A stretch of 64,000 nt of DNA, taken from the NCBI GenBank assembly GCA_921293015.1, contig OV121081.1, positions 65,427,022-65,491,021 on the forward strand. Reading direction: 5' to 3'. A program made the translations under genes and the position numbers. The notes beneath the pieces were generated by a model. That model had not been told where the DNA came from. It did not search any database and saw nothing but the letters and a program-made list of their open reading frames with translations. This document shows, one piece after another, positions 13,558 through 56,975 of this stretch (position 1 is the stretch's first letter; every line of letters starts with the position of its first letter). Origin of the DNA: Phorcus lineatus (Eukaryota; Mollusca; Gastropoda; Trochida; Trochidae).

Positions 13558-15116
13558 ACTGGTAAAGAGTTGGTGATATCCCCTTCATGAGACAACTAGC
13601 TGCCACCAAACAATGAAGAGTTGGTGATATCCCCTTCATGAGACAACTCGCTGACTACCAAACAATGAAGAGTTGGTGATATCCCCTTCATGAGACAACT
13701 CGCTGACTACCAAACAATGAAGAGTTGGTGATATCCCCTTCATGAGACAACTAGCTGACTACCAAACAATGAAGAGTTGGTGATATCCCCTTCATGAGAC
13801 AACTAGCTGCCACCAAACAATGAAGAGTTGGTGATATCCCCTTCATGAGACAACTAGCTGACTACCAAACAATGAAGAGATGATGATATCCCCTTCATGA
13901 GACAACTAGCTGACTACCAAACAATGAAGAGTTGGTGATATCCCCTTCATGAGACAACTAGCTGCCACCAAACAATGAAGAGATGATGATATCCCCTTCA
14001 TGAGACAACTAGCTGACTACCAAACAATGAAGAGATGATGATATCCCCTTCATGAGACAACTAGCTGCCACCAAACAATGAAGAGATGATGATATCCCCT
14101 TCATGAGACAACTAGCTGACTACCAAACAATGAAGAGTTGGTGATATCCCCTTCATGAGACAACTAGCTGACTACCAAACAATGAAGAGTTGGTGATATC
14201 CCCTTCATGAGACAACTAGCTGACTACCAAACAATGAAGAGATGATGATATCCCCTTCATGAGACAACTAGCTGACTACCAAACAATGAAGAGTTGGTGA
14301 TATCCCCTTCATGAGACAACTAGCTGACTACCAAACAATGAAGAGATGATGATATCCCCTTCATGAGACAACTAGCTGCCACCAAACAATGAAGAGTTGG
14401 TGATATCCCCTTCATGAGACAACTAGCTGACTACCAAACAATGAAGAGATGATGATATCCCCTTCATGAGACAACTAGCTGACTACCAAACAATGAAGAG
14501 ATGATGATATCCCCTTCATGAGACAACTAGCTGCCACCAAACAATGAAGAGTTGGTGATATCCCCTTCATGAGACAACTAGCTGACTACCAAACAATGAA
14601 GAGATGATGATATCCCCTTCATGAGACAACTAGCTGACTACCAAACAATGAAGAGATGATGATATCCCCTTCATGAGACAACTAGCTGACTACCAAACAA
14701 TGAAGAGTTGGTGATATCCCCTTCATGAGACAACTAGCTGCCACCAAACAATGAAGAGTTGGTGATATCCCCTTCATGAGACAACTAGCTGACTACCAAA
14801 CAATGAAGAGTTGGTGATATCCCCTTCATGAGACAACTAGCTGACTACCAAACAATGAAGAGATGATGATATCCCCTTCATGAGACAACTAGCTGACTAC
14901 CAAACAATGAAGAGTTGGTGATATCCCCTTCATGAGACAACTAGCTGACTACCAAACAATGAAGAGATGATGATATCCCCTTCATGAGACAACTAGCTGA
15001 CTACCAAACAATGAAGAGTTGGTGATATCCCCTTCATGAGACAACTAGCTGACTACCAAACAATGAAGAGTTGGTGATATCCCCTTCATGAGACAACTAG
15101 CTGCCACCAAACAATG
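13558..15116. repeat. 52/53-bp tandem array, about 30 copies, abutting the exon G donor
   Basis: About 30 copies containing GATATCCCCTTCATGAGACA. Two variable positions define subtypes: GTTGGTGAT versus GATGATGAT before the EcoRV-like core, and CTGCCACC (52 bp) versus CTGACTACC (53 bp) after CTAG. Copies are otherwise almost identical. The array is direct-repeat without unique spacers, so it is a minisatellite and not a CRISPR. It lies just 3' of exon G on the transcribed strand, ending about 12 bp after the donor. Confidence 0.97.
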
Positions 15117-15128
15117 AAGCACCCTCAC

Positions 15129-17571: not shown

Positions 17572-18356
17572 CTGGGGAGTATACCAGACATGCACATTAG
17601 CGACAATACACACACCAGAGCTTAACTCAAGTACTTCATAAATCAGATTCCTTTTGATATCAGAATTTATTCAAACATCCCAGCCATTTTTTAAATTCTG
17701 GGCTGGTTTATAATGGAGAAATAGTTTGTTGTCATTGTTACTGATTCAGTGCCACATTAATAAACTGACAAGATTATTTTTGATCAATTGATTAAAACAT
17801 TGCCATGTTTCTAATTAGAACACGCGTAGGGCTTTAATGATGGATAAATCAGTACAAAATCTTCAAAAGATGTTTAAGAAATAGCAAATGATGGCTATTA
17901 TAGCAAAACTTGAGAATATAGATGAAAGTGATTGACACACTGAAATTTATACAACACCTTAAAGAGAAAATTTCTATGGAAAAACATAGAGGTACATTTT
18001 GTTAAAAGGTTTGTCTTCCCTTAGGTGAATTACACAGCCAACTAACAACTACAACACTCTAAACAGTGAGAAAACAACTTCCTTTGCAAGGCACAAAAAT
18101 GCACTATTTTTGTTACTGACTCATTGAAACCTTGCTGCTAAATGTCACAGTATAGCCCAAACTAAAATTACTTACCTTCGACAAAATTTCTACCAACATG
18201 AATAAATGAGGCTAAGTAGCTTTCTGTGATCATTAGTTACTTCCTTGTTTAAAAAGTATACTTCAAGAAACTGTTTGCATCATTTCTGGAATCATATTCT
18301 GGAAAATCAATTTCTCCGTCTTAAAAATGATTCCAGTAAAATCTACGTGGACTCAC
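17572..18356 (-). other. Intron between exon F and the probable microexon
   Basis: About 785 bp of AT-rich sequence (or 3.2 kb to exon G if the microexon is not used). No repeats or ORFs of note were seen. Confidence 0.6.
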
Positions 18357-18657
18357 CTGTCATTTATGAAGGAGTGGGGTCGACTGTTGGGCCGACTGTT
18401 GTAGTAGAGAGGTTCTGAATCGGTGTCACTGCGACCTGGTTGGTACATGCCTCCATCCTGGTAGTAGTCTGGTTCCCGCTCGTACCCCCGGTCGAAGGAC
18501 TGGTCGAAGGAATCGAAGCGAGAGTAGTCTCGACTATCCTCGCGGAGACGGTAGGGATGGTCTGGGTGGCTGCGGTATTGGTGCGCGGAGGTGTTGTGCT
18601 GATGCTGCAGGGGGAAGTTGACATCGCTTGTGTAGTCGCTATCCTCAGACATCCCCG
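18357..18657 (-). CDS. unc-13: unc-13 exon F: Ser/Tyr/Arg-rich linker with DSDY segment
   Basis: A 301-nt exon with acceptor TTTTTTTAG and donor ACAG|GTGAGT, phase 1 in and 2 out. It encodes SGMSEDSDYTSDVNFPLQHQ, a His/Asn stretch, SAHQYRSHPDHPYRLREDSR, then a repeat-like RFDSFDQSFDRGYEREPDYY and a Ser/Arg-rich end …NSRPHSFIND. The start resembles the Munc13 segment RDSDYRSETSN…SVHQY. The linker looks disordered, with many Ser/Tyr near Asp/Glu or Arg (possible phosphosites, inferred). The minus-strand frame is open upstream through the 3' splice site into a 22-bp repeat array, so an ORF-only reading would falsely extend this exon by ~215 codons. An overlapping ATG in a second minus frame (start near 18624) is a shadow. 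Confidence 0.93.
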
Positions 18658-18779
18658 CTAAAAAAACATCATAGTCTTTCGTGATACAATAGCAAATGAT
18701 AAAGAGTTGGCTTGATGATGATTTATACATTTGTATTTGATGATTAGTAAAAAATTGCTTGATTATAAATATTAGGGTG

Positions 18780-19410
18780 TATAAGGATAAGCATAAGAGT
18801 CCTTGACGATAAGCATAAGAGTGCTTGATAATAATCATAAGAGTGCTTGTTGATAAGCATAAGAGTGCTCGATGATAGGCATAAGAGTGCTTGATGATAA
18901 GCATAAGAGTGCTCGATGATAAGCATAAGAGTGCTCGATGATAAGCATAAGAGTGCTCGATGATAAGCATAAGAGTGCTCGATGATAGGCATAAGAGTGC
19001 TTGATGATAAGCATAAGAGTGCTCGATGATAAGCATAAGAGTGCTCGATGATAGGCATAAGAGTGCTTGATGATAAGCATAAGAGTGCTCGATGATAAGC
19101 ATAAGAGTGCTCGATGATAAGCACAAGAGTGCTCGATGATAAGCATAAGAGTGCTCGATGATAGGCATAAGAGTGCTCGATGATAAGCATAAGAGTGCTC
19201 GATGATAAGCATAAGAGTGCTCGATGATAGGCATAAGAGTGCTCGATGATAGGCATAAGAGAGCTTGATGATAGGCATAAGAGTAACTCATAACAAGCAT
19301 AAGAGTAACTTATGATAAGCATAAGAGTGCTAAACATAAGCATAAGAGAGCTATAAGATAAACATAAGAGTCCTTGATAAGCATAAGAGTGCTTGTTGAT
19401 AAGCATAAGA
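18780..19410. repeat. 22-bp tandem array, about 28 copies
   Basis: Units of the form GATAAGCATAAGAGTGCTCG plus AT, with GATAGG and GCTTG variants, most regular between 18840 and 19270 and decayed at both edges. On the minus strand the unit has no stop codon, and because 22 is not a multiple of 3 all three minus frames stay open. This produces overlapping ORFs of up to 315 codons that are repeat artefacts. The array starts about 120 bp upstream of the exon F acceptor. Confidence 0.97.
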
Positions 19411-21951: not shown

Positions 21952-24900
21952 CTATAAGGAAAACAAACACGCCTTTTATTGATTTTATCTCTTCAGTGAT
22001 CACCTGAAAGGCAATAATTCATTTTATGTTCATATATATTTTGTAACATTGTACCATTAGCTATTGACAACAGACAATGTTATTGATTTGGCCTTGCACT
22101 GATCACTACAGAGCCAATAACTAGTATTGCTATTCATATATTTTGCAACATTACATACAAGATCTGTGGACAAAAAACGATTTTATTGGTTTCATTGATT
22201 GTATCTATTCAATAAATGATAACCATGAAATGAATACAATACTCCTATTCATATGTTCATGGATAGCAAGCAGAGCCCTGAATATGTATATTGTTCTACT
22301 TATGCATCAGTGACTTAGTGTTGACGAACCTCAATCAGTTTCAGTGTGGAATAAGGATTGATTGTGTTGGTAACAGTGTAGTAAGGGTTAGCTCTTGTTC
22401 TGGGACGGAGAAAGGGTTTGGATATCAACTAGCTTCTGTCACTAATTCTGATGCTTTATATATATATTTATGAATATATCATTTTTATTCTAGTCCACAC
22501 AGTTCTAAGCTATGGCCTCTACTAAGGGTTCACCTCACTCCCAGACGGAATAAGTTTAATTACAGTGACATTTGAGTGTTGGCATTCTTCGAGTACTCTC
22601 ATTTTCTTGCGCTCAAAGACAAGATAACAACAGCTTAGTCACAGCATAGCTTACAAAAAACAAAAACTTATTTGATTGCTACCTTCTGTCACCTTAAGAT
22701 TGGTTTGAAGCCTTTGTATTTTTGAGTTGCTGCATTACTGGAATCAAATCTTGATAACACCAGGTTTAGTCAGTGATTTGAGACATTTCAGCAAAATATT
22801 ACTGAACTAGCACCTCAAGGTTTAATTTACAGCAATCAGTTAGTCAGCTAGTAGAGTCATAAGACTCAAACATTCAAAAAAATAACAGAGGGTTCCATTT
22901 GGTTTAAAAAACCCAACTTCTCTGGTTCTTACACCTAAGCATCAAATTAGATTTCAATTCACTTTTCACTAAGGAAAAATGTTTCTGCTTTCATAGATAT
23001 TCTTTCACCATCTTAAGAGTTAAGCTTTAACCAGGTGAATCTATTGGTGTGATAACATACTGGTGACTTGACATCAAGTATGCAAACTCAGTAACATATT
23101 GAAAAATCTGGTTTTAATCACAAATAACTTTAGAGGGCACACCTTAAATATAACTGCAGATGAGGTCAAGGGTTAAATTGTTTTATTTCACAAGTGGCAA
23201 TGAATCCTACTATCTCATGAATATAATTGAATTTCATTTTTTTAAGACTGCAGGAAATTGTTTCAGCTTGTATAAAGATGATTTTTTAAAATCATATTTC
23301 AGTTTTTGATGATTGATATGTTGCTGAAAGCCTCATGTGACATTCAATAATTGACTCATAAGAAATTATCTCTATCATAGAACACATTCTTGAATCTCTA
23401 TCATATTAGAACAATTGTCATAATGAATTTTTTCCCCAGGAAAATATGGATTGTTTTCAGAAGAAATGTGCAAGCTGATAATTTGAATGTCAAATACTGC
23501 AAAAAGGATCAATTGAAATGTCCATTATACATCACCATGTCATTTCTGAATTGGAAATTATGAATCGTTATTGTAATGAAACAATGTGGGGAAATTGATT
23601 TTGAATAGCAAAAATTGTTCAAGTTAGGATACAAGTTTTGTGAAAAAGTAAATATAAATTCAGATTGCAAAACAACAATGCTTAAAGATTTTGTTTGAAC
23701 AAGCAAATGGAACATTAAGTAGAATGATTATTGACATGTAGGAGAATATTTTTTTATAAAAAATTTGATAAATCCTCTTTGCTATCAGGTGGTTGACATA
23801 TTGAGTCTACTTGCAGATAAAGACAAGATCTTCAAACATGAGATGTAAGATGTAAGAAAACAAACAAGAGAAGTAATGTTTTACACAAGTCTCGTCAACT
23901 TGACTTATTTGATTCTGCTGTAAAAGCAGGGTTGGCAATAAATTTACTGTGAGTTATACTAATAATTTTAAAACAAATGGGGAAATCCTTCAATATCCAT
24001 TACTCCTCCAAAAAGTCAGGTTGTGCAGCCTCTTTCATTAGGTATATTTAGAGTTTGCTAATCCATCAGATAACAGGTGAAGACAAGAAACCAGAAAAAA
24101 ACCCATTTTCAAGACATTGTGATAAATTAATTAAGACCAAAACGCCAGTTGCAATTAGTGTGTGAAGCAGTCATAAAATACCCAAGAATGGTCAATGTAA
24201 CCCGGCAGTTAGGCCCCCTAATCTTTTTGAGCATGAAATGCCAATCTGTTGCCACTGTCAAGATTGTTTTTAAGTATTCATGTTTATGATACAATCGACC
24301 TATTTGGGATTGACCGACTTGCGGCTCAATTTGATATTTATATACACACACTAATATGTATGTTTACTTTAGTTACATGCATCATTTATGATCAAAGAGT
24401 TATCCAGAAGTTTTGGGTTTTGGATTGAAAGGTATGGAACCGGTTCAGTAATTTCAAGAATAACTAATAAATCATAACTTCTAAAACATCTAGAACATCA
24501 AATGCATGAGTCAAAGTATCTATAGTGGCAGAGAGAAAAACAGAGACAGATATGCAGAGAGACAAACAGAAGGACAGTCATTTGGAATTGTTTCTCCGGT
24601 GTTCTCTTCATGTGTTCATACTATTTACGCCAAAACAAAAAGAGACACAGCCAGACAGAGACTGAGAGATACACAGAGAGACAACAAAGAGCAACAGATA
24701 TTGAGAATTGTTTCTCCTGTGTTCTTTTTACTTGTTCATACCATTGAAGACAACTTAAAGAGACAAAGCGACACAGCCAACACAATGAAGAGAGCATACT
24801 TCCTAGTCCATGATAGTTCAATACAGAGAGACTCAAAGAGACAGAGAGAATCAAGGAGACTGAGAGACTCAAAGACAGAGAGAGAGTATCAAAGAGACAG

Positions 24901-25537
24901 AGAGAATCAAGGAGACCGAGAGACTCAAAGACAGAGAGAGAGACTCAAAGAGACAGAAAGCATCAGAATGGTATGTTCTGTGTCTTGATGGTGAACAGAG
25001 GTGCTGAGAATAAATGGACAAAGCAAAACAGAGAGATAATAAATAAAGAGACAGAGCAAAAATATATGTTCTTGTGATTCATGATGTTAGTGTTGAAAAC
25101 AAGATAAAAAGAGATATACAGATACAAATCAGTTAAACTTTTGTCACATTACCTGTTGGTAAAAGAAAGTGTTGAGGATAGACAGAGAGTCATTTTTGAA
25201 ACATGGAGACAATGAGATATAGTGACACGGAGATACAGAAAGACAGACAGAGAGACACCACTTTACCTATGGTAAAAGATGTTGCTGAATATTGACAGAG
25301 GGACACTTGAGACACAAAAGATTGGCCAAAGACACAACATTTCCTCTAGGTTCAAAATGGTGTCAAGGACAGATACACATAAAGCCAGAGAGATACACAC
25401 ACCCAAACGGCAGATCAAAGATGTAACATTATAGTATTGAGGAGAAAGAGACAAACAGGGAGTGTAGGATACACACATACAGTATGACAGAGACAAATGT
25501 GATCACAGAGAAAGACATATATTAGCCGGTACATTAC
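21952..25537 (-). other. Intron between exons D and E
   Basis: Contains loosely repeated AT-rich units of roughly 100-110 bp at about 21960-22260 ('ttgatt.tatctattcagtgatcac…' pattern), then about 2.2 kb with nothing recognised, then the GA-rich array with exon D-like copies at 24520-25400. Confidence 0.75.
24520..25400 (-). repeat. GA-rich decayed array carrying copies of the 3' half of unc-13 exon D
   Basis: On the minus strand, CT-rich spacers (CTCTCTGTCTCTTTGAG-like) alternate with short segments resembling exon D CTGTCCTCAACACCATCATG plus AACCAG|GTAATG. Copies seen at plus positions: 25185-25153 (reads LSILNTFFYQQ then GTAATG), 25298-25267 (LSIFSNIFYHR then GTAAAG), 25375-25345 (VSVLDTILNLE then GAAATG, donor lost), 25102-25070 (LVFNTNIMNHK), 24830-24800 (SVLNYHGLGS) and 24753-24730 (weaker). 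The match includes exon and donor, which argues for duplication of the exon end, not convergence. The ORFs at 24506-24988 (plus) and 24621-24872, 25263-25496 (minus) are by-products. Confidence 0.72.
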
Positions 25538-25608
25538 CTCCTGGTTCATGATGGTGTTGAGGACAGACAGCTTGTTCTGCAGTTCCGCTGCCTCTGCCTC
25601 GGGCAGAT
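25538..25608 (-). CDS. unc-13: unc-13 exon D: helix immediately after C2A
   Basis: A 71-nt exon with acceptor TGTTGTTGCAG and donor GAG|GTAATG. It starts with two bases completing Asp and contains 23 codons: LPEAEAAELQNKLSVLNTIM then NQE. This aligns with the conserved Munc13 segment [22 protein letters not shown] after C2A, and is predicted to be an amphipathic helix. It ends in phase 0. The intron 3' of it (lower coordinates) contains a decayed array of sequences that resemble the last ~33 nt of this exon including the donor; see the repeat entry at 24520-25400. Confidence 0.93.
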
Positions 25609-26808
25609 CTGCAACAACATCTGAAGTCAGTGAAAGTAGAAGAGTGTGTTAGTACTGTACAGTGCACAAGCTGCAGATGAAGAGATGCAGGACAAAGGGG
25701 GTCAAGTGACAACGTAGTGCTAGTTATTCCGAGCATGCTAGTCATGATGTCCAACTAAAGTAAGCTTCTATTGCAGTTGATGCTTTTGAAAGCATGCTGT
25801 AATTAGAAAGGAATAAACATTGGTTATTTCAGCGTCCATCTAATGGTGTTTTAATTGTCACCATCTGACTATACTGTTTGAGAGGCAGAAGAACCAGTTA
25901 ATAATAGAAGGTTGGTAACTTGATAACATCCTGCTAAATTTATATTCATTTCTATATCTTATTCAGGATCTGTCTTACTAGTAAAACATTGAAATCATTT
26001 AGCTTTTGGGCAACATATGATGACTATGACCCTAATATGTTTGTCTCCGTAGATAACAAAATAACATCAGGTTATATAAACATCAAAATATCAATATCAC
26101 CTGGGCAGCATTATAAGTTGTATAAGGTCTCATATGATAACTATTAATCTAATATGTTTGTCCTATGGTCCAGCAATAGAGTATACTATGCTTCAGATCA
26201 CATTCCACTACAAGTATATATATCAAACTGTGCACTGAATAAACTTGAGTACTCTAATGAGAATAAGATATTATTGGAACCAACAGCTATTTTGGTTTAC
26301 AATTAATCAAACTGAAAAACAGGTGGGAGGGGCAATAACTAAAAGAAAGGTTGATATGTTTACACATTCACTCTCTCACATATACCTAGACCTGCACTTT
26401 AAGGGTGAAGTTAAATGTAGAAGTAACCATTATTAAAAAATTCTGAAATTTATTCCTTGCTTAATCTTTAATGGATGCTCATTCAAGAATTTATTACACA
26501 TTCAAGCTCAAGTTCCAAAATATTTTGGTTTCAAAAGCACTTCAAGAAATGAAACCTATTTGATTGATTTTAGAATTATTCAAAATAAATCATAAAGTCT
26601 GGAATGAACCTACTCACTGTAAAATCAGGAATTGTTTTGAAATTATTCTTCAATATAACCTTGGATCCTGTAAGTCATTCATTTGATATACTCAGGATGT
26701 TAATTTACAAATAATCTTAAAAATAGATATCAGAAATACATTAATTGTAATTAAAACCAAATGAACAGATTTTAATTCAACACACATATTCATATATAAG
26801 TTGATGCT

Positions 26809-27100
26809 CTTTGCATCCAGATAATACTTCAGATCTATAAAAAAAAAATATCCATAATTTGAAATAAGCTTTTTTCCTTAAAAAAAGCTTCGTTAGAAAT
26901 AATGACATTTGACAACAGAGCCTTTGTTGCTCAATCCTATTAAAGCTTTGTAACTCTTTGCATCCAGATACTACTTCAGATCTTCAAAAAACTATCCATA
27001 ATTAAAAATAAGCTTTTTTTCTTAAATATAGCTTCGTTAAAAATCATGACATTTGACAACAGAGCCTTTGTTTCTCAATCCTATTAAAGCTCTGTAGAAG
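26809..27100. repeat. Two-copy tandem duplication, period about 150 bp
   Basis: CTCTTTGCATCCAGATA followed by CTTCAGATCT, AAGCTTTTTT, GCTTCGTTA and GACATTTGACAACAGAGCCT recurs in the same order beginning at about 26806 and 26955. The copies differ by scattered substitutions and poly-A/T length. Confidence 0.88.
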
Positions 27101-27400
27101 TTACAGAAAAACCTCAGCGCTTTAGAGTTGTAAAAACACTTCCTGGTTTGAAAGAGGAATCAATGCAAGTTGGCAATTGTTATTCGTAGCTTGTTATCCT
27201 TGTGATGACACGCAGTAGCCGAGTTGAAAACTTCACTCCTTGAATGAACTTTGATTTTATGTAAATAACAATCAGCAAGATTCACAAGTAAGCACAAACA
27301 GTGATGCCATTTGTTGTCCTTACATGCGTAGTTTAACTTCATAAAACTTTTTTTGTGTGAATTCCTTGCAGAAAAATCAGCCTTGTGTTCTCATAAATCC

Positions 27401-27800
27401 TACTTAAATTCTTTAAGCCTAGGTCCTTGAAATGAGACTGTATGATCTTCTACTTAAATTCTTTAAGCCTAGGTCCTTGAAATGAGACTGTATGATCTTC
27501 TACTTAAATTCTTTAAGCCTAGGTCCTTGAAATGAGACTGTATGATCTTCTACTTAAATTCTTTAAGCCTAGGTCCTTGAAATGAGACTGTATGATCTTC
27601 TACTTAAATTCTTTAAGCCTAGGTCCTTGAAATGAGACTGTATGATCTTCTACTTAAATTCTTTAAGCCTAGGTCCTTGAAATGAGACTGTATGATCTTC
27701 TACTTAAATTCTTTAAGCCTAGGTCCTTGAAATGAGACTGTATGATCTTCTACTTAAATTCTTTAAGCCTAGGTCCTTGAAATGAGACTGTATGATCTTT
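27401..27800. repeat. 50-bp tandem array, 8 copies, essentially identical
   Basis: TACTTAAATTCTTTAAGCCT begins at 27401, 27451, 27501, 27551, 27601, 27651, 27701 and 27751, each followed by AGGTCCTTGAAATGAGACTG and TATGATCTTC. I saw no difference between copies except at the last junction (CTTT). Such homogeneity means very recent expansion or an assembly-sensitive VNTR. Confidence 0.97.
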
Positions 27801-28909
27801 TAAACCTGTTTCTACAGTGCATAAATTCCCTCATATGACACCAATTAAAGTCACGAAGGCACAGGACTTCATGTTGAGAAATAAGAGACATTTTTCCTTG
27901 CTTAATCATTACTAATGACCAGGGAAATGATGGACACACTTGCAGGGAGGAAGCACGACAAGAATCATGCATCATAATTAGGAGGAATTGGACTAATGGT
28001 TTCTGTCACTGAGACAGATCTGTATCAAAGAACAAAATACAAAAGATGTCCATCATGACAAACAGTTTTCTATAAATTAATAACAAGCATTAATTCTGTT
28101 TCAAATAAAATATTGTAGGAAGGTTTTACCATGGAATCATTTCATCATTTTCTTACTAAATTCAAGAATGATGAAGGCAATCCTTATGGATATTGAACTC
28201 CTTTCATCTAAGAGGACAATGTTTCAAGGTAGATTGTAAATGTTATCATGCAACAAGAAACAACAGAATCTTTTATGAAACATTTCCTGCCAAATAAAGA
28301 AGTAGTTTATCTCTATTTAGTTTACCTTCATCATTCTTTAATGTCTCAATTTCTAGTGTGCCTATCAGTGATGAGTCAAATTAGTGAGTTGATTAATTAC
28401 AAGAAGAGAACACAACAAAGAGGATTCAGTTGGACTGGTGAACAAGCTGTTCAGCCTACACATATGTAACTCCCGTACAACATAGGAAACTATGAATATT
28501 TCTAGGTATGTATGATATTGAAAAGTATATAAATATTCATGGTAGAAATTGTGCAAGAATTATGATTACTGAAATTATAATTTGATTATCAATTGAATCT
28601 ATTGAACTTGAAGTGAATCATTTATTGATTAATCGTCAAAGTTCTATATGACATGTTGCCTTCCAATATTTGGTAGAACTTATGTTTCACTAGATTAATA
28701 TTCCTCTAATTTAAAACATAAAGCAAATATTTCAACTACGTTTACATGTAAGCTTTGTTATAAAGTTATAAAACAATTTTTAATCTTTGAGATTAGTCTG
28801 CTTTCACTCGATACATAAATATTGATCCTTTACAGATAACATCTATTTAAGATGGTCTAAATATCAAATCCAGCAAAAGAAACTATATCAATTATAGAAC
28901 TTTTCTCAC

Positions 28910-29033
28910 CGTAAGGGAGCTCGAAGCGAGCATCAATGAGTATATGGTGGCCAGTTGAGTGCTGAGTTCCGATGACCTCTCCGTTTTGCATAATAAGCTC
29001 CGCCTCCAGGGACAACCACTTGCCATCGCCCTC
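28910..29033 (-). CDS. unc-13: unc-13 exon C: end of the C2A domain
   Basis: A 124-nt exon with acceptor ACGTTGCAG and donor TACG|GTGAGA, 41 codons plus one base. It encodes EGDGKWLSLEAELIMQNGEV, then IGTQHSTGHHILIDARFELPY, matching the Munc13 segment EGPGEWLTLDSQVIM…HRILLDTRFELP. This is the last part of the C2A fold, including the WLxL strand and the RFELP strand that closes the domain. The leftover G joins AT of the next exon to make Asp (…PYD-LPEAEA…; rat …PLD-IPEEEA…). Reading frame, splice sites and homology all agree. Confidence 0.96.
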
Positions 29034-32000
29034 CTGCAACGTGAGAATGATATAAAAATTTGCCCTTTTCAGGATAATTCTTCTTCTACAATAAATATCA
29101 TCAACTCCTCAGAGGAGCGTTCTTACGACGTTTGACAAACTTGTATTGATCAAACCAAACAGTTTGGCATTCAGAGCCATTCATTTTGCAATTTTCAAAA
29201 ATAAGATAAAACCAGCAAAACAATCATTAAATGAATATTGAAACAAAGGCCTTGTCATTTCTTCAACAAATGCATATAATCCACCACAAAATGAGTGAGT
29301 GGTTGAGTATTGTTTAATGGCACCATTTCAACCATTGCCTTAGTAAACTACAAAATGGAGACATTTCTATCATGTTTTTAATTGAATGATTAATCAGAAA
29401 GAGACAAATATCTAATTGAAGTTTGGTGAAATTGAATCCATACCTTTCCATGCTTTACAACTTCATCAATGTTTGAGAATTACCAAAAATTTAACATGAA
29501 TTCATAAACAACATATAAATACATAAAAATATCAACAATGCTTCCTAGTGTGGGATTTTTTTATTAGGTTAACAAATACTTGAGACCAAATTAAAAGTCA
29601 TCATTTTTAATCAATGAAATCATATTTCCAAAAGTATATATGTTTTGATAATCATGACTGAAAAAATATCAATATTCTGCATTATGCAACAAATTTATTA
29701 TTGGTAATGTTTTCTAATAATGTTTTCATATGCTAGATACTGTAACCTACATGATAAGTACCTCATAAGCACCCCCTAACCACATGCGCAAAAAAATTAG
29801 CACCCTCTTCTCCTAGTTACCTTGCATGTTAAACCCATTAGGCAGTATCATTGTAACCATTCTTCTAAACTTTCTTAATTATTTAGGCATGTACCTGACT
29901 ATCTTTTTATGCCATAAGGGAAAAAGGAAAAACTACAAATGGGAAGATGTACTTAGATAGCAGATGTTCTTAAATCTTTTATCAAAACATGATAAATTGA
30001 ATTTTACTAATTTTAATAAGCACCACCTCATTTCAATTTTCTAAACTCCCAAGCCTTTATATGTTGTATACTATATAATCAGAGAAATAGACTTGTTAGA
30101 TATTGTACTTGTGTGAAATGACATCATCATCTTAGATCATTAATATGCATAAATGCTTAAAATGTATTATCATCTATATTTAAGAAAAAAAGTTTCATCA
30201 AGATATATAGGAAAATTGTAAAAATCAGAAAATTTATTACAGGAATTATAAATTCTTGTAATGGATAACTTTGTCCATGCAAACCTCCTTTATTTCTTCT
30301 TCCAAGGAAACACTATGTCCCATAACTGACAGCTGAATAATTCAATACCGGCAAATTGAGGCAATTTTAGAGCATCACGATACCAATCGAGGGACATCCT
30401 CAATCAATACATCCCTCCTTGGATGTTGCTCATCACCATCTATCTCCTCTCAAATTCAATTTCATTCCTCTAAGAAGCAGGTTGAGCTGAATTCTTTGAA
30501 ACTATAACTTGATCAAAGACCACTAGCGCTCTAAATAGTATTTGGAATGATATAAAGTTTTCCTAGTGATGTTAACATTTAATATCAAATAAATAACCGG
30601 TCTGAGCCAAGTTTATTTTGATATCCTTTTGAATCTATATAAGAGATGTGTTTAAATTAAGATGTGTGATACCACTGCTTACTTTGAGATCTATGGTTCT
30701 TATATCTTCTTTGGTGACATTAGAACCAAATTTTTCTTTTAAGTTTGTAAATTGCAGCAATAGTGTTTAGGCAAATGAAATATTTGCATAGGTTTAATTG
30801 AGCATAAAAATCACTTCATTTTCTTACATCTTTTTATATATCTTCATTAAGAACCTGTCAACAAAGGAATAGATTTGATATGATGAGGAAAAAACTATTT
30901 TGTATCAAATTAGGAAATTGAAATGTGTAATTGTACTTATAATAATAAAACTTTTTGCAAGTTTAAAAAAAAGTTGATCAAAAGCATTAATTGCTAATGA
31001 TCAGCTTAATTGTGACTCAATTCTCTTCTCTTCAAGAATCAGAGCTTCAAAACAATTTTACGGAGAGTCATAATAATAATTTACACTCAAAAGCATTATG
31101 AATAATTCAAGTTGTAAAACCAAAGTAAGCAATGTGATGTGTCCAAACAACCAGTTCCCACATAGCAAACAAGTCAATATTCATCAAAAGGACCTTCAGA
31201 AAATTCCTTGATAATATGTTTATGAATAATTAAAGTTGTGATATCATTGTTACCAAGACTTGTTGGTTCAACTTATAAAGAATAAATGAAGGCTGAGCAC
31301 ATATCTAATGTTGTAACTCTCAGGAGTATAGAACTTCAGAGATAAAATTCCTGTTTTTAACCCTTGAAGTGGAGGCCCATCATAATCTGGGATAGTCTTA
31401 TTCAACCCTTGAAGTGGAGGCCCATCATAATCTTGGACAATCTTATTCAACCCTTGAAGTGGAGGCCAATCATAATCTTGGACAATCTTATTTAACCCTT
31501 GAAGTGGAGGCCCATCAAAATCTTGTACAATCTTATTCAACCCTTGAAGTGGAGGCCCATCAAAATCTTGTACAATCTTTTTCAACCCTTGAAGTGGAGG
31601 CCCATCATAATCTGGAACAATCTTATTCAACCCTTGAAGTGGAGGCCCATCATAATCTGGGACAATCTTATTCAACCCTTGAAGTGGAGGCCCATCATAA
31701 TCTGGGACAATCTTATTCAACCCTTGAAGTGGAGGCCCATCAAAATCTTGTACAATCTTTTTCAACCCTTGAAGTGGAGGCCCATCATAATCTGGGACAA
31801 TCTTATTCAACCCTTGAAGTGGAGGCCCATCATAATCTGGGACAATCTTATTCAACCCTTTAAATGGAGGCCCATCATAATCTGGGAACGTCTTATTCAA
31901 CCCTTGAAGTGGAGGCCCATCATAATCTGGGACAATCCTATTCAACCCTTTAAATGGAGGCCCATCATAATCTGGGACAATCTTATTCAACCCTTTAAAT

Positions 32001-33131
32001 GGAGGCCCATCATAATCTGGGACAATCTTATTCAACCCTTGAAGTGGAGGCCCATCATAATCTGGGACAATCCTATTCAACCCTTTAAATGGAGGCCCGT
32101 GATCTGTGACATCAGTGTAACAACTTATGATTCCTATGAGCAGTTCCCTTAGAATCCCTAGGTACTAAATTCTTTAGGTTAAGGGATAATAAAACAAGGT
32201 TATTAGAGTGGACATCCCTCTCATTTGAGATTAAAAAGAATAATTGAAAATTGTCTGTTAAGCACAACATTTGGTATTTCAACATTAGTTATTTCTGTCA
32301 GAACCTCTACATCAAGACAGTTTTGCCCTCCATTGATAAATCAGTCGCCCATAGCTACCAAGAAGTTCTGAAACCGTTTCAAGTGGTGTCTCCTTCCCAA
32401 GCTGATGTTACTTAAGCAGTAGATCAACAGAGACACACCGACATCCTGTTGCTGTCTGTTGCCCATTACCAGGTAGTAAACTCAATCTACGAGGATCGTC
32501 CCCAACAAAGGAGGCTAGCTCACTCCTCTATAAAGCACAAGGAAGAGATGTTCCTCGAAGGGGAGACTGATCTATAGGAGTCAGGAACACTTCAAAGCAA
32601 GGAATGGTAACATATATCATGGCATGATGTTCACCCTTCGAGGCAGAGTTCGTGAGATGATTGGAAGATAGGAATAGTTTTGTAGATGTTCTTGATAATA
32701 CTTTCTTGCTTTTTGTTACTTTGTATGACGTATACCAGATTGTGGGGGAGCTTGGCTGATAGACTTATAGTGGTGAGTAAAACATACTGGCTGAAAGTAA
32801 GGACATTTCTGGTGAGGTTGTAGCTCGATCATGAATACATATAGGCCCAACCCATTCAGAGTTGCCAGTTTACATGAATAAAAACTTGATAACGCTTGGA
32901 ATAATTAATCCAAGATTGGCTGCTTTAAAAGTAATAATTTGTATCAAAATAGCAAACTTAGCATTTGTTTTGAAATACATGACATTTACAAATAGGAGGG
33001 GAAAACTTAATTTTACCTAGTTTGCATGTGACATCTCATTATATTGCCTAGTAAAGTGTATTATCTGGAAATATCAAGCTCTTAGAGTTTGGTATCAAAT
33101 AATAATACCCAGTTTATCTGACAATAGTTAC
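29034..33131 (-). other. Intron between exons B and C
   Basis: Holds the 45-bp array (31361-32095). Around 29766 the string TAAGCACCCCCTAA resembles the terminus of the 7483-10804 element, with TTAGCACCC 30 bp on, but no inverted partner was found nearby. The region 32160-32720 is slightly GC-richer but without recognised coding content. Other parts are plain AT-rich. Confidence 0.75.
31361..32095. repeat. 45-bp tandem array, 16 copies
   Basis: Units CCTTGAAGTGGAGGCCCATC followed by ATAATCTGGGACAATCTTATTCAAC, with TTTAAATGG and AAAATCTTGTAC variants. The 45-bp period leaves open frames on both strands: minus, 15-residue units such as NKIVPDYDGPPLQGL; plus, VEAHHNLGQSYSTLE. It sits in a phase-0 intron inside the C2A domain, so use as protein is unlikely. 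Confidence 0.97.
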
Positions 33132-33249
33132 CTGGTTAGAGTGTGGTATCTTGGTGAGAGGCAGCCAGTGGAGGCCAAGCAGTTTGTCCCAGAGCATGCC
33201 CTTGTTCCACACCTCCACAATCAGACCCGTGTCTAGCCGCATCGTCTCA
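33132..33249 (-). CDS. unc-13: unc-13 exon B: middle of the C2A domain
   Basis: A 118-nt exon with acceptor TTGTTGCAG and donor CAG|GTAACT. The first base completes Phe, followed by 39 codons ending exactly at a codon boundary. It encodes ETMRLDTGLIVEVWNKGMLW, then DKLLGLHWLPLTKIPHSNQ. The core LxVEVWNKGxxWDxxxGxxWxPL is the diagnostic Munc13 C2A signature (rat: [24 protein letters not shown]). It follows exon A with no missing residue relative to Munc13 (…QDF-F-E…), so there is no exon between them despite the 13.9-kb intron. The flanking phases (2 in, 0 out) fit both neighbours. Confidence 0.96.
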
Positions 33250-33479
33250 CTGCAACAACGCAACAAACACTTAGCATTTTGAAATAAAATTTAGCATTAA
33301 GAACATATAGAGAATCACATAAAAAATACAGTTTCATCCCAAAAACTCATTACTTGATTAGAATTACCTCATTAAAATTTTATTAAGAAAAACAAGATTT
33401 TTTAGTTCAGTAGTTTTTTCATGAAGTTTAACAGTACATGCTTACTCCTTCTAAACTTTTTTACAGTAGATACAAAGAC

Positions 33480-33760
33480 AAGCATACTTTGATAGTCTCT
33501 AGTAGGTCATTTAACTAATTTACATGTTAATCTGACACAGAATTTTGATTTTCTTTTTAACAATTATAGGGCCGTTTTCCTATCATCATTGAAAAGAAGA
33601 AAAAATATCATTCTGGCATTTTTAGATAGATTTGTAGTGCTTAGAAGGTTGTTTAACTAATACATTTATAGGAACTCAGAATTTTGACTTTTACCATTTG
33701 TATGGGGAAAAAAAAGGAAAATATCATAATGTTGACATTTAAGAGATAAAGATGAATCTT
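33480..33760. repeat. Decayed two-copy duplication, period about 138 bp
   Basis: TTTAACTAAT...CAGAATTTTGA at 33510-33550 recurs at 33650-33690, and AAAAATATCAT followed by ACATTT/GCATTTTTAGATA recurs about 120-130 bp apart. Divergence is high. Confidence 0.5.
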
Positions 33761-35346
33761 TAGAAAGTTTATTTGAACTCAGCTTAGTATATCGTTTTCG
33801 ATCCTTATTTAGTTATATATATAATTTATGAAACATACTCTGTGTCACATTAACTCCTATTCTTGGTTACCAAGGTAACTAACAATTAGCTTCCTTTGTT
33901 AAGGAGCCAAAGGAAGCTCCTCCTATTTGCTGGGTTCTTCATATTGCCAAAAGCAACTTGATTAAACAGTAACAAGACGTATGTTGGTTTATTTCAAAGT
34001 TTAATATAGCAAATGCATTAAAAAAAAAGACTGATACACAAGTCGCTCCTCTTGTATTTACATATATCAAACCTGGTAGCAATATCATAACATTATATTC
34101 CCGACTAAGGAATTAGTCAATATACAGCAATCAAACACTATTTCAGTTAGGTGTTCTTTTCTTATTAATGGACTTTTTCTACAAGACGCCAATGACAATA
34201 CTTTAAATAACTTAACAGAAACAGACACTGACCAGCAGCCAGACAGCTCAATACATATTCAGTGTGACTTAAACACCAAGGCACATCTCAGAAGTGTAAT
34301 TATCAGAATTCAGAAATATCAACATGAAGAAGGGCACCAAATTATAAAACTCTGGACCAGAAGTACCATTAGATGGTACCTACATCCAATTCTTATCATG
34401 AAGTAAGCTCATACTTCCTGTGTAACACTTCAATGGCTTACTTGGTATTACTGACTCATTAATATACATATACTGTATGTGACTAAACGACACCCGGGAT
34501 TTCAAACAATGGGAGTACTATGATAAGAGCATGCATATCTTAACAATGTCATTGTTAAATCAACACTCTTTTGCTTTACTGTTGCAAAACGTCATGGACA
34601 CAATTCATTCTATATGTATTGAAATTATTTCTCTTGCTACATCAAACAATTTATTTTGGGTCATAACTGAGGTTAGAATATTTAAACTGAGACACATGTT
34701 TTAAAGAGAACCTAGCTTTTGGTAAATTTGTATTTCAATACACATCACATCATGTCAGCTAAAAAACAGTTAATAACTTTTTTCTAAACTATAGTATGTT
34801 TTACCCACAGAACAATAGAAGATATATAAAAAGGGATGTTAAATAATATAGTATTTAAGGTAGCTCATATTTCAATTTCTTCCCTTTTCCCCTGTGAAGC
34901 TCAGGTAACTATAAATCTTTTATCTATGTCTATTAAAACTTCAAGAGACATCCCAAAAGTTTCTAGCTTGACCACAAAAACTTTTAGAAAAGTGAAAATG
35001 TTTATTTTTTGGCAGAACAACTGCAGAACAGATTTTTGGGCCACTTCGCACCCAGCTGGAAAGTCATTCATGAAGGTAAAATATGGTTGCACTTTGGACA
35101 TTTGTTCCGTTCAGGCTAGACACTTTTGACATACACCTCATAACTCTGTTACTGCATGTACCTGCAGAGGTTTATTTACACCAGTTTAATGTTTTACTTA
35201 TAGAGGCAGAATTTCTGCTACTTTAAATATAATTCAAACCCCTTCTAATTTAAAATCTCTTACTTAAATAATAAAAAAAATAAATAAATAAAATACTTAA
35301 TTCAAAACCCCAGTAAATAGCATAATACAGAGTAAGAATTGTGAAT

Positions 35347-55794: not shown

Positions 55795-56102
55795 GGGCAC
55801 AGTAATGTGGTGGTTAGCATGCCTTTGATGCCAATGGTCTGGGTTCAATCCCGGTTGAGGCACTAAACATTTGTAACTTCCCTGGGCAAGACACTTCATC
55901 TACATTGCAATAACTCTACCCAGCTGTACCATTGGGTACCTGAACACAGGAAGGTAAGGACCTATAGCATCCTGTAACGAAGCATTTCCTAGGCTGCATC
56001 GTATTAGTATACCTCAGGGTACTAATACAATTTGTGCTTTTTGAGAATGCTGTCATAGATATATATATGCATGGTACAAGAGAGCTATTATTATTATTAA
56101 TG
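55795..56102 (+). mobile_element. tRNA-derived SINE, plus orientation
   Basis: A tRNA-like head has an A-box-like TGGTGGTTAGCATG and a B box GGTTCAATCCC. It is followed by a conserved body (CCCTGGGCAAGACACTTCAT), typical of SINE cores in aquatic animals, and a 3' ATT-rich tail (TATTATTATTATTAA). Length is about 305 bp. It is not a functional tRNA: the cloverleaf acceptor ends do not pair well and it continues into the SINE body. Confidence 0.8.
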
Positions 56103-56693: not shown

Positions 56694-56975
56694 GTGAGTT
56701 GAGGTGAGCTGAGGTGAGGTGACTTGGTGTTTAACGCCGCTTCAAAGATTATTTCACTTATATCGCGGCTGCTAGTATTATTGCAGGAAGAAAGCCTACA
56801 ACACCATTTTGGCTATGCATTACGGTGAAACCTGTGAGAATCGGCTGGAATTAGCGAATAATGGGTGGTACTGCGCAGAAATTCAGTGTAGCATTGCACC
56901 CAAACCTGACGGGATTCGAACCACAGACCTCTTGATTCGAAGCCGAACGCGCTAACCACTGCGCTATCCCGTCCC
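56694..56975 (-). mobile_element. tRNA-derived SINE, minus orientation, with 13-bp TSD
   Basis: On the minus strand a tRNA-like head GACGGGATAGCGCAGTGGTT ... GGTTCGAATCCCGTC is followed by about 200 bp of body, containing GCGGCGTTAAACACCAAGTC, and a TCACC-repeat tail. AGGTTCTCTTCAG directly flanks it at 56681-56693 and 56976-56988. The intact TSD and good A/B boxes imply a fairly recent insertion. The GTTTAACGCCGC motif is familiar from mollusc SINEs (from memory). Confidence 0.92.

Follow-up and report, generated by a model that had tools for sequence, protein, structure and literature searches.

Zhuo et al., writing in PNAS in 2007, reportedly traced human introns to tandem arrays, in which a boundary segment present in tandem copies lines up several splice sites one after another. 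At the locus that we describe here, in an unc-13 gene of the gastropod Phorcus lineatus, no new intron is shown and the old donor presumably still works. Human segmental-duplication genes likewise carry internal tandem repeats at exon-intron boundaries, which alter gene structure (PMC2812944). The human repeats are like the unc-13 array in having minisatellite-sized units at exon-intron boundaries; they are, however, recent, variable among paralogs, found by TRF and in some cases backed by transcripts with novel introns (PMC2812944), whereas the unc-13 array is decayed (about 80% identity at best) and yields a TRF report for one spacer only. The UBC gene offers a second comparison, because dual-specific AG/GT splice sites (the slash marks the splice junction) occur in its tandem repeats (PMC10809524). 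There, an AG/GT stands at the repeat-unit boundary, as at positions 25266 and 25152 here, but the UBC units are whole coding monomers that are spliced, whereas the unc-13 units are remnants. A third likeness is to recursive splice sites, for which the motif Y5+N0-4YAGGT has been published (PMC10156609). The pyrimidine tract followed by YAG/GT that it describes is present at 25266, which fits the motif, and at 25152 with a gap of 5 nt, which does not. The unc-13 array is a decayed case of already known boundary minisatellites. Our literature search found no title on this intron, though absence is not thereby proven.

The unc-13 host gene

We analyzed a stretch of 64,000 nt of contig OV121081.1 (assembly GCA_921293015.1, positions 65,427,022 to 65,491,021), hereafter the window, and all positions refer to it. 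Exons were recognized by eye and with a simple AG/ORF/GT/GC filter. Splice sites were scored with textbook frequency matrices (elsewhere with a simpler rule), which gives rough values. When joined, exons B, C and D of the minus strand encode 104 residues; residues 2-102 align with PDB 2cjs_A (UNC-13 homolog A; phmmer, E 2.1e-31) and residues 2-77 with PDB 2cjt_A (phmmer, E 6.2e-24). The minus-strand host is identified by this C2A-region similarity as an unc-13/Munc13-type gene. A PDB search with nothing but the 83-aa open reading frame that surrounds exon D gave five matches (E 0.63-6.7) that we judged to be chance. A Pfam scan of approximately 25503-35003 in three frames, with stops read as X, yielded no family at E <= 0.1; since the interval includes exons B and C, the scan was too insensitive. 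Splice signals and phase suggest that the intron downstream of exon D probably extends to a small exon of 49 nt, the probable next exon, as follows:

33249-33132, minus strand: exon B of the unc-13 host gene
29033-28910, minus strand: exon C of the unc-13 host gene
25608-25538, minus strand: exon D, DLPEAEAAELQNKLSVLNTIMNQE, 71 nt, phase 0 at its end, assigned from the 2cjs_A alignment and splice sites
25537-21952, minus strand: probable host intron, 3586 nt, up to the 49-nt exon
21951-21903, minus strand: probable next exon, MLALQDQPRRPPSYSQ, 49 nt, phase 0 to 1, with a GTAAGT donor, assigned from splice sites and phase
18657-18356, minus strand: exon E, GMSEDSDYTSDV, joined in frame by the 49-nt exon

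Exon D is taken to encode the helix after C2A, a label that the original prediction, made from the sequence before this analysis, also used. A second in-frame acceptor lies 12 nt upstream of its start (25622-25608, minus strand) and outscores the downstream one; from it, the exon would start at 25620 and gain the four residues DVVA.

Several other features of the window were recorded along the way. Two unc-13 exons on the minus strand, 15188-15129 (PAMSRNSSLNMSRQSTQDY) and 2208-2034 (PVNSRVSSSNVSRQSTQDY), match at 47 of 67 bases, ungapped, over their first 58 nt plus 9 nt of the acceptor, and the 60-nt exon 15188-15129 looks like an in-frame cassette (phase 2 to 2) that originated by partial duplication of the larger exon. 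In the intron past the exon F donor, a 52-bp array of 30 copies (13565-15119) begins after ten bases and has no likeness to exon F (score 10). The reading frame of exon E is stop-free over 318 codons (18353-19309, minus strand), a run that extends upstream across most of a 22-bp array with about 29 copies; other frames of the array likewise lack stops (239 and 150 codons), and the long open run may therefore be trivial. The intron between exons B and C contains a 45-bp array of 16 copies (31268-32164, minus strand) with 298 codons without a stop, and the intron between C and D a 50-bp array of 8 copies at 100% identity (27400-27799) that is probably very young. A tRNA-like match to RF00005 (35.4 bits) lies at 56907-56973 on the minus strand.

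Copies of the exon D end in its intron

Exon D ends in CTCAACACCATCATGAACCAG, followed by the junction GAG/GTAATG (25561-25532, minus strand). The original prediction held that the 3' half of the exon and this donor recur at least five times in the next intron. We aligned the 40-mer 25570-25531 locally to the intron segment 25500-24520 (match 1, mismatch -1, gap -2/-1) and obtained seven non-overlapping matches with scores of 24, 23, 15, 15, 14, 12 and 10. None of 500 dinucleotide shuffles attained the observed score at any of the seven ranks; the eighth was the bare CTGTCTGTC, which 3 of the 500 attained. The copying of the exon D end into the intron is therefore real, with seven copies rather than the minimum of five, and the comparison with shuffles of the same composition that had been proposed as a way to refute it came out in its favor at each of these seven ranks. 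The range first proposed for the array (24520-25400) leaves out the first copy. The source segment, the copies and the associated repeats are listed below:

25570-25531, minus strand: source segment, made up of the final 33 nt of exon D and the 7 nt of intron next to it (donor GAG/GTAATG)
25450-25427, minus strand: copy c1, CTCTTTCTCCTCAATACTATAATG; score 12 (0/500), donor part lost
25373-25337, minus strand: copy c2; score 23 (0/500), 81% identity over 37 nt, donor GT changed to GA (GAGGAAATG; GAG/GAAATG)
25298-25260, minus strand: copy c3; score 15 to the exon and 19 to c4, TAG/GTAAAG kept at 25266
25185-25146, minus strand: copy c4; score 24, 80% identity over 40 nt, CAG/GTAATG kept at 25152 behind CTTTCTTTTACCAA
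25101-25075, minus strand: copy c5, TTTTCAACACTAACATCATGAATCA; score 14 (0/500), without a donor
24993-24978, minus strand: copy c6, a short remnant, CACCATCAAGACACAG; score 10 (0/500 at its rank), without a donor
24830-24797, minus strand: copy c7, CTCTCTGTATTGAACTATCATGGACTAGGAAGTA; score 15 (0/500), GT at 24799 in the weak context AA/GTATGC, donor score below 1.5
24763-24694 and 24643-24574, minus strand: two sister units 120 nt apart, 76% alike, from repeat finding
24965-24823, minus strand: CT/GA-rich tandem expansion within a spacer, 2.5 copies with a period of 56 nt, 91% matches by TRF

The exon-like readings described at the outset were found in the DNA (LSILNT from 25185, VSVLDTILNLE from 25376 and LVFNTNIMNHK near 25102), as were the two donors said to be kept, GTAATG in c4 and GTAAAG in c3; with the weak GT of c7, three of the seven copies retain the dinucleotide and four have lost it. 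The sister units score 35 with one another, 15 with c5 and just 8 with exon D, and they may be far copies that extend the array, their membership being uncertain.

Because the intron is patchily CT-rich, we used shuffling within 60-nt blocks and a 30-mer without the CT-rich head as further tests. With either the 40-mer or the 30-mer, 0 of 500 block shuffles attained the observed score at any of the seven ranks. The complementary strand and the reversed array scored below the array, the other strand at background level, and each of 124 further tiles taken from the window scored lower (best tile sum 77 vs. 113 with the 40-mer and 68 vs. 89 with the 30-mer). A search of both strands of the 64 kb with nhmmer placed the top three non-self matches in this intron and on the exon's strand (E 0.0015, 0.046 and 1.7). 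In a cross-control of six exon ends against six downstream introns (kilobases of sequence), exon D scored 24 against its own intron, whereas no other pairing exceeded 13; for exon E this control used 18355 as the end instead of 18356. When 16 tandem arrays of the window were compared with segments of the seven recognized exons, the maximum was 15 (exon D in its intron: 24), and no second case emerged among those seven exons.

Repetition starts near 25570 (CTGTCTGTCC), and the first half of exon D is not repeated, as 30-mers 5' of about 25580 scored only 7-9 against the array (sliding 30-mers from 25520 and 25510, which overlap the target, were left out). Copies c2, c3, c4 and c7 match the source across both sides of the exon-intron junction, with the intron side amounting to the first 7 nt. 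All copies are minisatellite-sized, tandem and on the strand of the exon. The starts of successive copies are irregularly spaced, at 120, 74, 78, 113, 79, 99, 177, 73 and 120 nt (range 73-177), four of the nine spacings falling at 73-79 nt; the values were computed from typed starts, with those of c5 and c6 extrapolated, and the last two lead to the uncertain units. With TRF run at score 40, the sole report in the array region is the CT/GA expansion at 24823-24965, which is young, and repeat annotation of this kind would therefore miss the exon-derived copies.

Origin of the array

We consider it about 80% probable that the array is a decayed, boundary-spanning minisatellite seeded from the end of exon D and its donor. 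Relations among the copies bear on the direction of copying. The two best copies, c2 and c4, stand in a star-like relation to the exon, each nearer to it (scores of 23 and 24) than to the other (15, a score also attained by 1 of 500 shuffles), as would be seen with a slowly evolving exon and fast-evolving derivatives. Copy c3 is closer to c4 (19) than to the exon (15), the pattern of a later ancestor common to c3 and c4, as their alignment suggests. A consensus of the copies agrees with the exon at 38 of 40 positions when projected on it, a comparison that is hence circular; with c4 or c2 as the scaffold, the gain was 0 and 2 score units. The proposal of tandem amplification across the exon-intron boundary was borne out to the extent that the copies stem from the exon's 3' end and donor and the exon looks ancestral.

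In the mechanism that we propose, several rounds of tandem duplication would have acted on a segment that runs from the final 33 nt of exon D through the donor into the adjoining intron. Such duplication probably came about by replication slippage or by unequal exchange involving the exon tract CTGTCTGTC (25570-25562) and the intron tract TGTCTCTGTC (25495-25486), which lie 76-80 nt apart; the resulting unit would contain the exon end and its donor together with some 45 nt of intron. A tract-to-tract event predicts that the first half of the exon is not repeated. The first copy would still finish the exon and provide a working donor, so splicing would be unharmed, and the later copies would end up in the intron, where they would decay neutrally. 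Some may have been duplicated again (c3 and c4; the 120-nt pair), the 113-120 nt spacings would mark units with a longer CT spacer, and the CT tracts would have expanded afresh; we infer this order of events from the copies as they stand today. The many further tandem arrays that TRF reports in the window and the young 56-nt expansion of the spacer support such a model. When the CT-rich spacers were compared with the first intron bases, none of four tests was significant and no homology beyond composition appeared, which leaves the ancestral unit demonstrated only up to the first 7 nt of its intron part. If the copies are neutral, the best of them (about 80% identity) would probably date back tens of millions of years.

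The opposite direction of copying, in which the array came first, or the array and the exon end came from another common source such as a dispersed repeat, with the exon end rewritten from the array, seems to us unlikely. The repeated part does begin with a stretch, CTGTCTGTC, that resembles the CT spacers. Moreover, a search of 958 Mb of the genome (74 contigs) with 25480-25660 returned exon D once and missed c2 and c4 nearby, and it therefore cannot exclude dispersed copies that are about 80% alike. Yet the alignment to 2cjs_A continues through the repeated part, sharing KLxxLN, with identities by our own count at 4 of 9 residues there and at 6 of 13 where the exon is not repeated. Such conservation of the protein indicates that the exon predates the copies, and the greater nearness of c2 and c4 to the exon than to one another also speaks against rewriting. 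Chance resemblance in CT-rich sequence strikes us as barely credible. CT-rich spacers do produce spurious matches, as in the reversed window, where a spacer part matched at E 0.001, and the coding 21-mer alone (CTCAACACCATCATGAACCAG) scored 13 at best, below the maximum of 14 among 1000 shuffles (null mean 7.9); the case therefore rests on the longer match and the number of copies. The local shuffles, the reversed sequence, the other strand, the 124 tiles and the 30-mer without its CT head all argue against chance, which is ruled out for the best copies and may still apply to c6 and the two farthest units.

Candidate splice sites in the array and their meaning

A boundary-derived minisatellite would carry donors into the intron, and the original prediction saw in those retained a set of decoy or alternative 5' splice sites, a splicing buffer or a source of extra residues after the C2A helix. 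We regard as distinctly improbable that they compete with the weak donor of exon D, be it as a buffer or, via the stop at 25417, as an NMD switch. In favor of competition, the donor at 25152 scores 4.09 by the textbook matrix vs. 3.00 for exon D's own, and c3, c4 and c7 keep their GT; no other donor in the array is better than that of the exon. The GT is gone from the remaining copies, however, and donors are not enriched over shuffles: the array has three scoring at least 1.5 (attained by 147 of 500 shuffles), one of at least 3 (shuffle mean 0.70; 257 of 500) and one of at least 4 (143 of 500), while the other 2568 nt of the intron carry two of at least 4. The proposed functions find no support here. 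Nor would simple use of 25266 or 25152 add residues, because exon D extended into the array meets a TGA at 25417-25415 and the protein would be truncated; an exon D that reached to 25152 would measure 456 nt and contain this stop. Position 25538, also named as a candidate donor, is the authentic end of exon D and not a decoy. Decoy donors, possible as they are, would not be needed to explain the sequence.

A further reading makes c3 and c4 dual-specific AG/GT sites that bound an in-frame cassette exon of 114 nt (25266-25153), or else recursive splice points, and we hold it to be very unlikely. The cassette would encode 38 residues, has no stop in the phase required after exon D and is in frame with the next exon, and its candidate peptide ends in LSILNTFFYQQ, an echo of the LSVLNTIMNQE of exon D. 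In addition, 25152 is the sole minus-strand AG/GT site of the window with a donor score of at least 4 and an acceptor score of at least 5. Against this reading, 634 of 3000 shuffled 114-nt frames were open, 59 of 2000 shuffled arrays contained such a dual site and 66 of 2000 contained two at the level of 25266, the plus strand has an equally good one at 34905, and lower donor thresholds give higher summed scores at 55939 and 18356 on the minus strand. Furthermore, the acceptor at 25266 is poor (-0.54), and the cassette peptide resembles a translated CT tract. The published motif quoted above (PMC10156609) lends recursive splicing no strand excess: it occurs 12 times on either strand of the window, and 25152 is not one of these sites. 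There is accordingly only a slim chance that the cassette could be inserted after the UNC-13 C2A region in some neurons, as an exon-birth intermediate from a boundary minisatellite.

Preferring the decayed minisatellite, we regard the array by itself as a neutral-looking product of mutation. It is a readable minisatellite seeded across a junction of a conserved gene, in which the exon serves as a built-in reference that polarizes the decay of the copies. Should the array be preserved in relatives of P. lineatus, it would put a date on such events and reveal the lifetime of extra donors next to a weak natural one.
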